This document shows positions 27,056 through 30,431 of a DNA stretch of 64,000 bases, piece after piece. The stretch's first letter is position 1. Every line of letters starts with the position of its first letter. The stretch is from contig NC_011296.1 of the NCBI RefSeq assembly GCF_000020985.1, positions 1,416,001 through 1,480,000 of the forward strand. Reading direction: 5' to 3'. The translations under genes and the position numbers were made by a program. The notes below the pieces were generated by a model. The model saw only the letters and a program-made list of their open reading frames with translations, did not search any database and was not told where the DNA came from. The DNA is from Thermodesulfovibrio yellowstonii DSM 11347. Its GTDB lineage: Bacteria > Nitrospirota > Thermodesulfovibrionia > Thermodesulfovibrionales > Thermodesulfovibrionaceae.

Positions 27056-27907
27056 TTAAATTATATTAAGTGCTGCTTGGGGAATTAATTTTATAATGTC
27101 TGAGATCTGAGTTGAAGGGTCTGGATTGGCAAGTTTACCAGCAATTCTGTTAATTTTTGAAGCAAATACGCATGCTGTCTGTATCTCGTAGCCAGAATCA
27201 ATTAAAGCAGATACAATACCTGTTATGCTGTCTCCTGTGCCTCCAATAGGCTCAAGTGCTTCTATAACAGGCTCTGATACCATATCTACAACTTCCCCTT
27301 TTTTTACGATGTAATCTGTTTTCCCTTTAACAAGAAGATATTCTGGCGCATTTTCATACTCATAAGCTCGCCTAATAAGTTCTTCAACTCTGCTTTCATC
27401 TTGGAGAAGAAAACCTCTTGTATAAAAAGGATGAGGTGCTTCTTCATCAGCCAGAAAAGCAAGCTCTCCGGTGTCTGGTGTAAAAAGGTTAAAATATTTA
27501 GCGTTTCCGCTCATCTTTGCTGCATACATAAAACCTGCATCAGCAATTAAAAAAGGATGTTTATGCAATTCCTCAATAACAAGCAAAATTTTATTACACC
27601 AGTCAGCATCAGGCATAAGATAGTGAAAGGTAAGTGTTTGAAATTCTCTTTGTCTTATATCCTTGATAAAATATTCATAAAGCTTCTTACTGCCTGTTCC
27701 TTTTCCGATGTCTCCTGCGAGATATACATAGGGATAATCTTTTTTTAAAACTTCAAAGATTTTACATGCAGAAGCAACAAGAGCTGGTGTTCCTCTTTGG
27801 ACTGGGACTCTTTTGCTATCAATAAATAAAAAATCGTTTTCTAACTTGGCTTTTCCGAAAGTAATGGGAAAATCTTCCTCTGGCACAGTTCCTATGATTG
27901 CAAGCAT
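27056..27907 (-). CDS. Ribokinase-fold protein of unknown substrate (NAD(P)HX dehydratase/sugar kinase-like)
   Basis: 283 residues. The C-terminal motif GGTGDSITGIVSALI resembles the anion-hole/catalytic Asp motif of ribokinase-like enzymes (GxGDxxxG), preceded by LLVKGKTDYIVKKGEVV as in YjeF-C/NnrD and PfkB proteins. FNLFTPDTGELAFLADEEAP matches the T-P-x-x-x-E segment of that fold. The normal N-terminal sugar site is not recognisable. The gene overlaps the DUF3343 gene by 16 bases and ends the minus-strand selenium-linked cluster, so a role in selenium or sulfur metabolism is possible but only inferred. Confidence 0.6.
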   Translation of the reverse strand: MLAIIGTVPEEDFPITFGKAKLENDFLFIDSKRVPVQRGTPALVASACKIFEVLKKDYPYVYLAGDIGKGTGSKKLYEYFIKDIRQREFQTLTFHYLMPDADWCNKILLVIEELHKHPFLIADAGFMYAAKMSGNAKYFNLFTPDTGELAFLADEEAPHPFYTRGFLLQDESRVEELIRRAYEYENAPEYLLVKGKTDYIVKKGEVVDMVSEPVIEALEPIGGTGDSITGIVSALIDSGYEIQTACVFASKINRIAGKLANPDPSTQISDIIKLIPQAALNII

Positions 27908-28434
27908 AATTCTTTTATTTTATCATAGGCTAACTGAAGAGCATATCCACATAAAGTATGCCCAATTTCATTGGGCTCTGGAACTTCATAAATATTTTTA
28001 CCAACTAACATGGCAGCTAAATAAGGAACATCCGGGCAACCACCACCTGAAACATTGACAATTGTCAAGCTGCCTTTATGAACAGTTATTTTCATATTAG
28101 CTGCCCTGACCATTATAAATCTTCCAAAATCTTTTATATGAAAAAGGTCAACAGGCTTTAAATTACCATCGTTTAAAGGCATATAATCAATCGGTGACAA
28201 TTCGTAATTTTTAAGAAGCTTTAAAATTCCTACGGTCTCAACGATTGGAAAATCTATTGCAAGGTCACAGCCTTTTCTTACATGTGGAGGTGGTCCAACA
28301 ACTTTAATCTCATATCCATGCTTTTTAAGAATGTTTTCTGCTCTTATTACCTCAGAGGTATTTTCAAAAATGAGAATTCCTCTATTATAGGAAAGTTTTT
28401 TATTATTTCTGAATAATTTTTTAAAAAATTTCAT
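27892..28434 (-). CDS. DUF3343 (putative Se/S carrier-like) protein
   Basis: 180 residues. The N-terminal part (about 18-90) matches the DUF3343/Se_S_carrier type: GILIFENTSEVIRAENILKK, then PPPHVRKGCDLAIDFP with the conserved Cys. The C-terminal part is an extension with VSGGGCPDVPYLAAMLVG and a second Cys in LCGYALQLAYD. DUF3343 proteins often occur with YedE and TusA/YedF genes in selenium-using bacteria. It lies about 40 bases after the TusA-like gene on the same strand. The function as a Se/S carrier is a family hypothesis. Confidence 0.75.
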   Translation of the reverse strand: MKFFKKLFRNNKKLSYNRGILIFENTSEVIRAENILKKHGYEIKVVGPPPHVRKGCDLAIDFPIVETVGILKLLKNYELSPIDYMPLNDGNLKPVDLFHIKDFGRFIMVRAANMKITVHKGSLTIVNVSGGGCPDVPYLAAMLVGKNIYEVPEPNEIGHTLCGYALQLAYDKIKELCLQS

Positions 28435-28475
28435 CTAATCCTGCCTGAATATTTGTCATTATAAATTGTTTCTTT

Positions 28476-28694
28476 TTAATCTTTGCTTATTTTAACCCTA
28501 TACCATGCCTCTTCCTGTTGAACTTCAACGATTTGCCAGCCCATTGATTGAGCTGCACGGGATACATTTTCTCTTGAAGTATCGGTATCAACAAGAATCT
28601 CTATCTCACCCTTACCAAGTTTTTTTATTGTTTCAAGAGTTAAAAGCACAGGCTCAGGACATGAAAGTCCTCTTGCGTCAACAATTTCAGCCAT
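28476..28694 (-). CDS. TusA/SirA-family sulfur (or selenium) carrier protein
   Basis: 72 residues. The family motif DARGLSCPEPVLLTL (about 5-19) has the persulfide-forming Cys in the CPxP context. The rest fits the small alpha-beta TusA fold. It lies two bases downstream of the YedE-type transporter gene, with GGAGGT before its ATG. Together with DUF3343 and YedE it fits the selenium-associated YedE-YedF type arrangement rather than tRNA thiolation, for which partner genes would be needed. Confidence 0.85.
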   Translation of the reverse strand: MAEIVDARGLSCPEPVLLTLETIKKLGKGEIEILVDTDTSRENVSRAAQSMGWQIVEVQQEEAWYRVKISKD

Positions 28695-28696
28695 TT

Positions 28697-29788
28697 TTAC
28701 CTCCTTCTCATTGTTAATCCAATAATTACACAGACTATTAACCCTATTATTGTTGCCACTGCCCCATTTGGACCTATACCAGCTGGTGAGCTCGCAAGAC
28801 CAAAGTTATGAGCAATTCCTGCACCGACAATCATACCAGATGCAAAAACAGCAGCATCTGCATCACCTTCTCCAGACATAAAAAGCTGTCTACCAGGACA
28901 ACCACCCGCCAGAGTGAATGCTAAACCCGCAAGTGTCATACCCAGAAAATTCCAGAGCTGCATTGTATGAGCAATTGGTTGTTTCTCAAATCCTGGATGA
29001 AATTGACCAAGTATTAGATTTGTTATCAATGCTGCTATAAAAAATGCTGCCACACCTGAAAATAAATGCCCTTGTTTGAAAAGTAAAAGGTCTCTGAAAG
29101 CTCCCATAGTGCAAAATCTGCTCCTTTGAGCAAGAACACCTATTAATAAACCCACAACAAGTGATATAAATAAAGGTGCATGCTGAGCCCCTGGTCCTTT
29201 TAAACTATAAAAAAGTAACATTCCCCTTCCTTCTCCTTCTGGTTGAGGATCAATAAATAGAAGAATAAGAAATCCGAGCATCAAAAGAGGAAAGGCAAGC
29301 CCTGCTGCCTTTGACGGAGCTGTTTGAGTTCTTCCCAGAGAGTAACCAGCCTTTAAAAATCTTGTTCCAACCCATATACCAAAAATAAGACCGAGCAAAC
29401 CAAAGATTGCATTTCCGTCTCCACCAGCAAGCCTAAGGAGAGTTCTCCATGGACAGCCCAAAAACACTAACGCACCTATCATTGCAAAAACACCTAAAAT
29501 GAATCTTATAAATGGTGCAGAGCCTCCGCGAGGTCTATATTCCTTAAATGCCAATGCAGACAAAAATGCTCCGAGCACAAACCCGAGTATTTCAGGTCTC
29601 ATATACTGAACAACTGCTGCTCTGTGAAGTCCCAATGAGCCAGCAATATCCCTTTCCATACAGGCAACACATATACCCATATTAGGTGGATTTCCAAGAT
29701 TCTGAAGCACAGGAGCAAGAACCCCAATAACTAAACCAACAAAAATAATACCTCCCCGCGTGGCAAGAAAATTTTTAAAACCCTCCAT
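28697..29788 (-). CDS. YedE-type selenium/sulfur membrane transporter
   Basis: 363 residues with about nine or ten membrane helices in two YeeE/YedE halves. Conserved cysteine loops are visible: GICVACMERDIAGSLGLHRA near 33-52, LGCPWRTLLRLAGGDGNA near 110-127, RFCTMGAFRDLLLF near 225-238 and GGCPGRQLFMSGEGDADA near 298-315. These are characteristic of the YedE family proposed to move selenium or thiosulfate-like species. It heads the minus-strand cluster with TusA-like and DUF3343 genes. A probable selenoprotein gene lies about 450 bases upstream on the opposite strand, which favours selenium over sulfur. Confidence 0.85.
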   Translation of the reverse strand: MEGFKNFLATRGGIIFVGLVIGVLAPVLQNLGNPPNMGICVACMERDIAGSLGLHRAAVVQYMRPEILGFVLGAFLSALAFKEYRPRGGSAPFIRFILGVFAMIGALVFLGCPWRTLLRLAGGDGNAIFGLLGLIFGIWVGTRFLKAGYSLGRTQTAPSKAAGLAFPLLMLGFLILLFIDPQPEGEGRGMLLFYSLKGPGAQHAPLFISLVVGLLIGVLAQRSRFCTMGAFRDLLLFKQGHLFSGVAAFFIAALITNLILGQFHPGFEKQPIAHTMQLWNFLGMTLAGLAFTLAGGCPGRQLFMSGEGDADAAVFASGMIVGAGIAHNFGLASSPAGIGPNGAVATIIGLIVCVIIGLTMRRR

Positions 29789-29889
29789 ACCCTCCTCCAG
29801 AATTTTTTGAATATTTTACTTAGATATCGCCAATATGTAAAATTGTTTTTTTCAATAAATGATTTAAACTTTCATAGATTTTCCCGATT

Positions 29890-30171
29890 GCCATTCCAAG
29901 CCTTTTCCCCTGTCATTCCGATAGCCGTTCCTTTTCTGTCATTGCAAACGGAGCATTCCTATCCTGCCATTCCGAGGCTGCGTAGGCAGTAGAGGAATCT
30001 CCTCAGATTTAAAATGAGGAGACCCCTCCTAACGCTCGGGGTGACAGAATAGGACTGTCATCCGAGCCTTTTATCTATCATTCCGAACGAAGTGAGGAAT
30101 CTCCTCCTTTTTTTCTGAAACAGCAAGAGAAATTCCTCGGCACATCACGCCCCCTGAATGACAGAAAGAAA
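29890..30171 (+). repeat. Dispersed intergenic repeat cluster, copy C (inverted modules)
   Basis: Between the yedE-type gene and the small gene at 30240 lie several modules of the same family as copies A and B, mostly in inverted orientation: CCATTCCGAGG, GAGGAATCTCC, GGAGACCCCTCC and CTCGGGGTGACAGAATA (best unit 29968-30050), then a further unit from 30061 to 30171. No open frame of note runs through it. Confidence 0.75.
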
Positions 30172-30201
30172 GTGAACAACCTTTCTGGAAAATTTCTAAA
30201 A

Positions 30202-30229
30202 TTGACAGTTTTTTTTGCTATTCTATAGA
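30202..30229 (+). promoter_or_regulatory. Promoter of the selenoprotein candidate
   Basis: A perfect -35 TTGACA (30202-30207) is followed after 16 bases by TATAGA (30224-30229). Transcription would begin near 30236, only a few bases before the ATG at 30240, so the message is nearly leaderless. This supports the small ORF being a real gene rather than a remnant. Confidence 0.65.
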
Positions 30230-30239
30230 ATTTAAAATT

Positions 30240-30431
30240 ATGCGAAAAAAAATTCTGAAAAATGCAAAATGTAAATATTGCAAAAACACAGTTTTAATAT
30301 TTTTTTATTGAAGTAGAGTTGTGCTCTGCTGTAGTGAATGCGGAGCAGAATTCAAAGTGTCTGAATATCTTGAGGATATTGATGAAGAAACATGGGAGAT
30401 TATTTCAAGACGTTCCTGTGACAGAACTTAG
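30240..30431 (+). CDS. Candidate selenoprotein, small dual-CXXC protein with in-frame TGA (Sec24)
   Basis: Read through the TGA at 30309-30311, the frame from ATG 30240 to TAG 30431 gives 63 residues. It has CKYC at 11-14, the TGA at codon 24, then CCSECG (30-35) with a second CxxC at 31-34, an acidic helix-like EYLEDIDEETWEIISRR, and a final Cys60 in SCDRT. Coding character and Cys pattern continue after the TGA. A SECIS-like hairpin lies directly downstream (30316-30353). From memory this matches a family named dual CXXC motif small (seleno)protein, where the TGA position is Cys or Sec; I cannot verify that here. Alternatives are a nonsense mutation or a 23-residue peptide. A selenium transport cluster lies next door. 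Confidence 0.72.
30316..30353 (+). promoter_or_regulatory. Bacterial SECIS-like stem-loop
   Basis: The upper stem pairs TGCTCTGC (30322-30329) with GCGGAGCA (30340-30347), eight pairs with one G-U. The lower stem pairs GAGTT (30316-30320) with AATTC (30349-30353) across a single G-G mismatch. The ten-base apical loop, TGTAGTGAAT, has G as its second base. The loop starts 18 bases after the TGA. Known bacterial SECIS elements have a G in the first two loop bases and a TGA-to-loop distance of about 16-37 bases, so both criteria are met. Confidence 0.7.

Follow-up and report, generated by a model that had tools for sequence, protein, structure and literature searches.

Selenium uptake by bacteria and its specific delivery to the selenophosphate synthetase SelD form a standing question, for which YedE, SirA-like/TusA proteins, YedF, LysR_Se, DUF3343 and a lyase are recorded candidates (PMC5322559, PMC9312934, PMC2432076, PMC4210487, PMC13188914). 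Gene clusters that combine YedE, a SirA-like (TusA) protein, DUF3343 and a selenocysteine (Sec) lyase have been described (PMC5322559), EF2566-EF2568 among them (PMC2432076). Alike in outline are the TsuA/TsuB (YeeE/YeeD) and yeeE/yedE-tusA-dsrEFH (YTD) clusters, where a YeeE/YedE transporter adjoins a TusA-family protein; in the YeeE/YeeD pair the TusA-family partner takes the substrate at the transporter exit (PMC11073785). Here we describe a four-gene operon that addresses this question in a 64,000-nucleotide stretch of the Thermodesulfovibrio yellowstonii DSM 11347 genome (contig NC_011296.1, positions 1,416,001 to 1,480,000; hereafter the window), in which a transporter and two carriers are joined by a ribokinase-fold enzyme, referred to below as the kinase. 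The operon shares its transporter and carrier families, and nearness to selD, with the known selenium clusters, and differs from them in adding the ribokinase-fold gene and in a double-size DUF3343 protein that has two extra invariant cysteines; where YTD clusters have DsrE-type proteins, it has DUF3343 and the kinase. What is new is thus one candidate gene, the kinase, in an otherwise known kind of selenium gene cluster, so that the operon adds an enzyme, and not one more carrier, to the selenium candidates. The available open-access text of the five papers cited first does not mention it among those candidates: the only 'kinase' in the available main text of PMC5322559 and PMC9312934 is PSTK, and one of the two occurrences of the word in that of PMC2432076 refers to thiamine-monophosphate kinase. 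Searches of the open-access literature likewise brought up no article about this gene.

All four genes lie on the minus strand and are transcribed in the order YedE, TusA-like, DUF3343, kinase. A preliminary description of the window had placed three of them in selenium-associated families, and both the open reading frames and the family scores bear this out. The first gene (28697-29788) encodes a YedE family putative selenium transporter of 363 amino acids, which scores 493.8 bits against TIGR04112 (cut-off 200). The second (28476-28694) encodes a TusA-family carrier of 72 amino acids with a CPEP motif (PF01206, 71.3 bits, cut-off 28.6); it has no YedF-type C-terminal domain and scores 53.8 bits against the two-domain YedF model TIGR03527, below the cut-off of 110. 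The third gene (27892-28434) encodes an extended DUF3343 (Se_S_carrier) protein of 180 amino acids, and the fourth (27056-27907) the kinase, of 283 amino acids, whose residues 115-271 match PF01256 at 33.3 bits (cut-off 27) and which is distant from the NAD(P)H-hydrate dehydratase NnrD of that family. The genes are tightly spaced, with 2 nucleotides between YedE and TusA, 41 nucleotides between TusA and DUF3343, and an overlap, noted beforehand, of the DUF3343 stop with the kinase start, which measures 16 nucleotides (27892-27907); overlap or near-abutment of these two genes is common among relatives. The gene downstream of the kinase is convergent and ends 15 nucleotides away, so the kinase is the last gene of the operon.

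The same gene order recurs well beyond the window. Among the 80 loci that we fetched, the best of 386 kinase relatives found by a scan of genome contigs (the nearest, from Thermodesulfovibrio sp., has 71% identity), translated searches found all four genes on the same strand, in the order YedE-TusA-DUF3343-kinase, in 72, in agreement with the earlier suggestion that the fourth gene belongs to this module. Upstream of the kinase, DUF3343 follows directly in 79 loci, TusA is present in 74 and YedE in 73; of the eight loci that lack a part of the module, five (L057, L075, L083, L087, L095) are cut off within it by the end of their contig. Within the window's phylum, the kinase family was found in 17 of 245 genomes (E below 1e-90), after two of 19 matches with 30-31% identity and frames of 531 and 566 amino acids (G014, G237) had been dropped as presumably fused NnrD proteins, and all 17 have a YedE over the cut-off, compared with 32 of the 245 overall. 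A second set of genomes, selected without regard to the kinase, comprised 198 from the Desulfonema magnum phylum; Desulfonema magnum is among them and carries the kinase. The kinase is present in 45 of these, with a weakest best E-value of 3.6e-57 and nothing between this value and the threshold of 1e-15. A profile of the extended (~180 amino acid) DUF3343 protein matches 47 of the 198, including all 45 kinase genomes, in each of which the two genes share a contig and in 44 of which they lie within 160 nucleotides of each other. The two DUF3343 genomes without kinase have a match to the N-terminal domain only (G345) or a partial frame with a stop (G394); beside the latter (L179) no kinase was found, weak traces of a split YedE and a TusA-type domain were, and the module may be decaying there as a unit.

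YedE shows a similar association in the Desulfonema magnum phylum, exceeding its cut-off in 41 of 45 kinase genomes and in 84 of 198 overall (Fisher p 1.4e-14, phylogeny ignored); it shares the kinase's contig in all 41, at a distance of less than 3.5 kb in 40. The remaining four genomes (G313, G327, G422, G449) have two half-length YedE-like matches and TusA beside the kinase and no full-length YedE, so every kinase genome of this sample has a YedE-type transporter. Loci L175, L176, L177 and L178 seem to hold this module with a split transporter, as kinase and DUF3343 adjoin a pair of half-length YeeE/YedE matches and a TusA gene, arranged in either order. Across 72 loci, the kinase distance matrix correlates with those of DUF3343 (r 0.84), YedE (0.84) and TusA (0.60), with none of 2000 permutations as high; these values include species kinship and are not used as proof. 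A chance neighbourhood is ruled out by the recurrent gene order and the adjacency to DUF3343, and the kinase is very likely a regular member of the YedE-TusA-DUF3343 module.

The module is also connected to selenium genes. In the window's phylum, selD is over its cut-off in all 17 kinase genomes and in 107 of 245 overall, and of 46 kinase genomes to which the fetched loci led, 44 have it; these 46 were drawn from 71 named loci, the 25 omitted being mainly short contigs, several with selD in the locus. Of the 80 fetched loci, 23 include selD, on the kinase's strand in 21, against an expectation of about 0.27 for one randomly positioned selD per assumed 3.5 Mb. In 16 of these 80 there is a YedF-like gene and in 13 a LysR gene, and a selB cluster occurs in four of 88 loci clustered; these labels rest on similarity to one checked representative each, scoring 215.8 bits against TIGR03527 (cut-off 110), 292.5 bits against the selenium-metabolism LysR model NF040786 (cut-off 250) and 366.1 bits against TIGR00475 (cut-off 242.25). 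The selD gene of the window's genome, a single contig of 2,003,803 bases, is at 348575-349492 of that contig and has one in-frame TGA, as do most full-length selD matches in both phyla, which suggests a Sec-containing SelD and Sec decoding in this organism. The preliminary description had staked its proposal on homologues not being regularly found without YedE or DUF3343 and in selD-negative genomes, and no such pattern appeared: in the 198-genome sample DUF3343 accompanies the kinase in 45 of 45 genomes, YedE in 41 whole and four split, and selD in 42, while YedE and selD each accompany it in 17 of 17 in the window's phylum. In Methanococcus maripaludis, yedE mRNA increases by 5.28 log2 units on selenium depletion (PMC11097638).

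A further association concerns TIGR01977, a desulfurase model that takes its name from EF2568, which is encoded next to selD (PMC2432076). Among the 84 YedE genomes of the Desulfonema magnum phylum, a TIGR01977 desulfurase over the cut-off accompanies the kinase in 11 of 41 and is present in 35 of the 43 that lack the kinase (Fisher p 7.5e-7, phylogeny ignored); in the window's phylum the corresponding numbers are one of 17 and six of 15. In three members tested, the SclA selenocysteine lyase model scored second best, below its cut-off. We fetched 12 of the 15 kinase-negative YedE loci of the window's phylum and 18 of the 43 of the other. One of the former (L138) and five of the latter (L157, L160, L164, L168, L170) have the desulfurase in the locus, with a DUF3343-like match beside it in all six; it stands directly behind YedE-TusA in all except L157, where it follows selD and YedF. 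In the other 13 of the 18 loci, YedE-TusA either stands by itself or is accompanied by selD, LysR or other genes. The SclA-like lyase with its short DUF3343 also occurs behind YedE-TusA in related loci, and differs from the kinase pair in belonging to the cysteine desulfurase families and in the short form of its DUF3343 protein. When whole genomes are compared the alternation is clear, though not strict; within the operon it is partial. The kinase with extended DUF3343 and the lyase with short DUF3343 look like two versions of one operon that in part replace each other, and they may differ in the selenium sources that they support.

On balance, we favour the reading that the kinase is an adenosine triphosphate (ATP)-dependent enzyme of the ribokinase superfamily and a dedicated part of a four-gene chalcogen-supply operon, and we think it reasonably probable that this operon serves selenium over sulfur. 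A number of observations weigh against a dedicated role in selenium supply. The role of the kinase is deduced from genome comparison and prediction. In the window's own genome, selD is ~1 Mb from the operon, and in the Desulfonema magnum phylum the co-occurrence of kinase and selD says little because selD is near-universal there (176 of 198 genomes). All 17 kinase genomes of the window's phylum belong to one order. Individual loci depart from the module: in L079, YedE and DUF3343 are 39 nucleotides apart with no room for TusA, L090 has DUF3343 but neither YedE nor TusA within 8 kb of the kinase, and L089 has the kinase alone with no DUF3343 upstream; in two genomes of the 198-genome sample DUF3343 is 1.1 kb (G446) or YedE 20.6 kb (G310) from the kinase. 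The lyase-like desulfurase is carried by 11 of the 45 kinase genomes as well, and only 5 of the 18 kinase-negative loci fetched from the Desulfonema magnum phylum contain it. Five genomes of one family in the window's phylum (G003, G013, G022, G039, G046; G039 and G046 are 88% and 75% complete) have a TIGR04112 YedE and the TIGR01977 desulfurase without selD over the cut-off, counter to the published statement that YedE occurs only in selenium users (PMC5322559); L141, L144 and L148 are the loci that belong with this observation. Selenium transport by YedE is itself a prediction (PMC5322559): in Methanococcus maripaludis a firm selenium phenotype of yedE deletion was not obtained, and no tested transporter, YedE included, was unequivocally tied to a selenium species (PMC11097638).

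The module might instead handle sulfur, importing thiosulfate or sulfane sulfur through YedE/YeeE and relaying it by TusA and DUF3343 for assimilation, tRNA thiolation or dissimilatory metabolism, with the kinase serving that route. The kinase hosts are largely what we take, from record titles and presumed physiology, to be sulfur-cycling anaerobes. Four kinase loci have half-length YeeE/YedE proteins in place of TIGR04112, and the one half tested reached 53.2 bits (cut-off 200). Experiments have established thiosulfate uptake by YeeE/YeeD, in which the transporter is paired with a TusA-family protein (PMC11073785), DUF3343 also occurs in organisms without selD (PMC5322559), and yeeE/yedE-tusA-dsrEFH clusters of Desulfobacterota and Nitrospirota have been assigned to sulfur oxidation (PMC13293266), which again counts against a selenium role. 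The window's YedE, however, falls within the selenium subfamily model and scores at most 52.6 bits against a TsuA model, and the recurrence of selD, YedF, selB and a selenium-type LysR in the kinase loci likewise sets the module apart from TsuA/TsuB and YTD clusters. Moreover, the kinase is present in less than a quarter (45 of 198) of the genomes of a phylum that is presumably rich in sulfate reducers. Sulfur handling is an unlikely explanation, though a serious rival with a real chance of being correct.

The fold attributed to the fourth gene in the preliminary description is supported by a confident AlphaFold2 model (mean predicted local distance difference test score, pLDDT, 92.7), computed from an alignment of 64 sequences taken from 60 of the 80 fetched loci, three genomes of the window's phylum and the window. 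The 50 structures listed as matches to this model have Z-scores between 18.1 and 20.3 and include ribokinases and phosphofructokinase-2; the nearest folds are about equal, namely the NnrD TM0922 (20.3), pyridoxal kinases (20.2) and other enzymes of the ribokinase superfamily. PF01256 is the only Pfam family found in all 64 sequences (E 0.01), a hydroxyethylthiazole kinase model being found in four as well, and no match to PF00294 (PfkB/ribokinase proper) was listed for the kinase at E 0.1. A search of PDB sequences with the kinase profile gave one weak match, a thiazole kinase (E 4.7e-5). The motifs GGTGD (residues 222-226) and TPDxGE (143-148) are invariant in the 64 homologues, and the segment GDxGxGxGS at residues 65-73 is likewise invariant. 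Among Cys, Asp, Glu, His, Lys and Arg residues, those invariant in all 64 are R38, D66, H95, D123, K131, D145, E148, D154, H159, R164, K194, D198, E219 and D226. As no cysteine is among them, it is improbable that the chalcogen is carried by the kinase itself.

An active phosphotransferase of the ribokinase superfamily would be expected to retain GGTGD with D226, and the kinase is probably catalytically active with ATP. Any particular substrate that might be named for it is doubtful, and a kinase or dehydratase for a selenium or sulfur intermediate, the example given in the preliminary description, is one candidate activity. The most distinctive segment of the protein is the near-invariant loop APHPFYTRGF (157-166), which partly contains the only stretch of the model below a pLDDT of 50 (163-168) and might be a mobile lid or a partner loop. 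Were it a partner-binding surface, the kinase could have a non-catalytic role beside DUF3343, either structural or regulatory, such as sensing nucleotides so that chalcogen transfer is gated according to the ATP level, as the near one-to-one pairing of the two proteins and their overlapping or abutting genes would also allow; the invariance of GGTGD and D226 in 64 of 64 homologues is expected of an active enzyme and makes such a role quite unlikely.

Among known proteins close to the kinase is NnrD (PF01256, TIGR00196, TM0922), with which it shares the fold, the GGxGDxLTG motif, the TPxxGE segment and the C-terminal half, the part over which a profile comparison of the two is significant (97.5% probability). 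It differs from NnrD in being a stand-alone protein, in an N-terminal half that the profile comparison leaves unaligned, and in its score against the equivalog model TIGR00196, which at 27.5 bits is far below the cut-off of 129.85. The PHPGE and N-x-TG motifs, which do not vary among six NnrD proteins of kinase-bearing genomes, are altered in the kinase, where the His of PHPGE is replaced by Asp (D145) in all 64 homologues and the N-x-TG stretch is replaced in the profile alignment. A separate and stronger PF01256 domain is encoded elsewhere in the window's genome (323748-324512, 200 bits) in a frame of 518 amino acids, presumably a fused NnrD, and among 26 kinase genomes examined (17 from the window's phylum, nine from the other phylum's 45), all except G128 have a PF01256 match of at least 70 bits in addition to the kinase. 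We therefore rejected the kinase as the housekeeping NnrD, and it is very unlikely that it is a metabolite-repair or cofactor enzyme, whether NAD(P)H-hydrate dehydratase-like or vitamin-kinase-like, that is merely co-regulated with a selenium operon, even though PF01256 membership in 64 of 64 sequences, the profile match to NnrD and the closeness of the model to TM0922 and pyridoxal kinase fit such a protein.

The partner of the kinase, the extended DUF3343 protein, is about twice the usual size of 80-100 amino acids (PMC5322559). PF11823 matches residues 19-81 only, at 69.5 bits (cut-off 25), so that the C-terminal half, although conserved, is not covered by the Pfam model. An alignment of 55 sequences (50 of the 80 fetched loci, two genomes of the window's phylum, two Desulfonema magnum phylum loci and the window) has three invariant cysteines, C56, C133 and C162, of which C56 is presumably the cysteine already known from DUF3343. 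In single-member scans no Pfam family of weight matched the C-terminal half, the best besides PF11823 having an E-value of 0.0038, and a PDB sequence search with 12 extended DUF3343 proteins gave one match at E 0.1 and none better. The predicted model (mean pLDDT 87.1, predicted template modelling score 0.64) has middling structural matches; the C-terminal half matches IscU with a Z-score of 6.0 over 80 residues, below a trustworthy level, and lipoamide dehydrogenase with 7.0 over the same part. A profile comparison with Escherichia coli IscU gave a probability of 0.4%, which lends no support to the IscU likeness.

Taken together, the favoured reading of an ATP-dependent enzyme within a chalcogen-supply operon suggests the following scheme. 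YedE would import a selenium (or sulfane-sulfur-like) species across the membrane and TusA would receive it on its CPxP cysteine, a step proposed by analogy with the YeeE/YeeD thiosulfate pair (PMC11073785). The extended DUF3343 protein may then accept the chalcogen from TusA on C56, C133 and C162 and pass it onward. The kinase, predicted to be translationally coupled to the DUF3343 protein and probably bound to it, would act on a small molecule in a step that uses ATP and by which the chalcogen is released to, or received for, selenophosphate synthetase. As most YedE genomes without the kinase have a selenocysteine-lyase-like desulfurase instead, we propose that the kinase/extended DUF3343 pair may do a lyase-equivalent job for another selenium source. 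A more specific version, in which the pair forms an ATP-driven chalcogen-release complex that phosphorylates either a species held by DUF3343 or a small-molecule leaving group, is a speculative possibility with little probability attached to it. If true, this complex would hand selenium to SelD without a pyridoxal phosphate-dependent selenocysteine lyase and thus provide a second, lyase-free mobilization route in anaerobic bacteria. Transporter, carrier, double-size carrier and enzyme make up a compact four-protein set for reconstitution.

Divergent from the operon, on the plus strand at 30240-30431, lies a candidate selenoprotein gene with an in-frame TGA, whose product, read through the TGA, scores 49.1 bits against NF041197 (cut-off 40), the already known 'dual CXXC motif small (seleno)protein' family. 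The preliminary description regarded this gene as a neighbour of the module. In one pattern scan, by which variants of the pattern would be missed, it was not found in the other fetched loci; its closeness to the module thus looks particular to the window's genome, it is probably not part of the module, and we do not retain a functional tie between the two. Upstream of YedE, promoter-like hexamers on the minus strand (29813-29841; TTTACA, 17 nucleotides, TAAAAT) are a consensus match only, as such matches in the region do not exceed shuffled sequence (12 found, 11.1 expected). Terminator-like sites are more frequent than expected (nine against 2.5), with five inside YedE or DUF3343 and none behind the kinase. 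Up to E 1, the sole RNA family match upstream of YedE is to a microRNA model (E 0.81), whose gathering score it misses by a wide margin. Between YedE and the Sec candidate, positions 29900-30130 contain repeat-like units CATTCCGAACGAAGTGAGGAATCTC and look-alikes, with stems GAGGAATCTCCTC and AGGAGGGGTCTCCT, which look like a small dispersed repeat; an exact 25-mer of the unit occurs once in the window, allowing three mismatches.

Elsewhere, a second YedE subtype, with 39-46% identity to that of the window, was found in 11 loci (L139-L149), all with an adjoining PhnD-like solute-binding gene and none with the kinase; the representative of these loci reaches 51.5 of the 250 bits required by the putative selenate-binding model TIGR04553. 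Near the kinase, a HAD-type small protein of ~156 amino acids recurs in seven loci (L041, L048, L050, L052, L054, L063, L072), the one tested having a weak resemblance to P-type ATPases, and a small DUF1858-like cysteine protein occurs in 20, its representative (L018) matching no NCBIfam model. Both labels are our own reading, and we regard the two proteins as further candidate members of the module.

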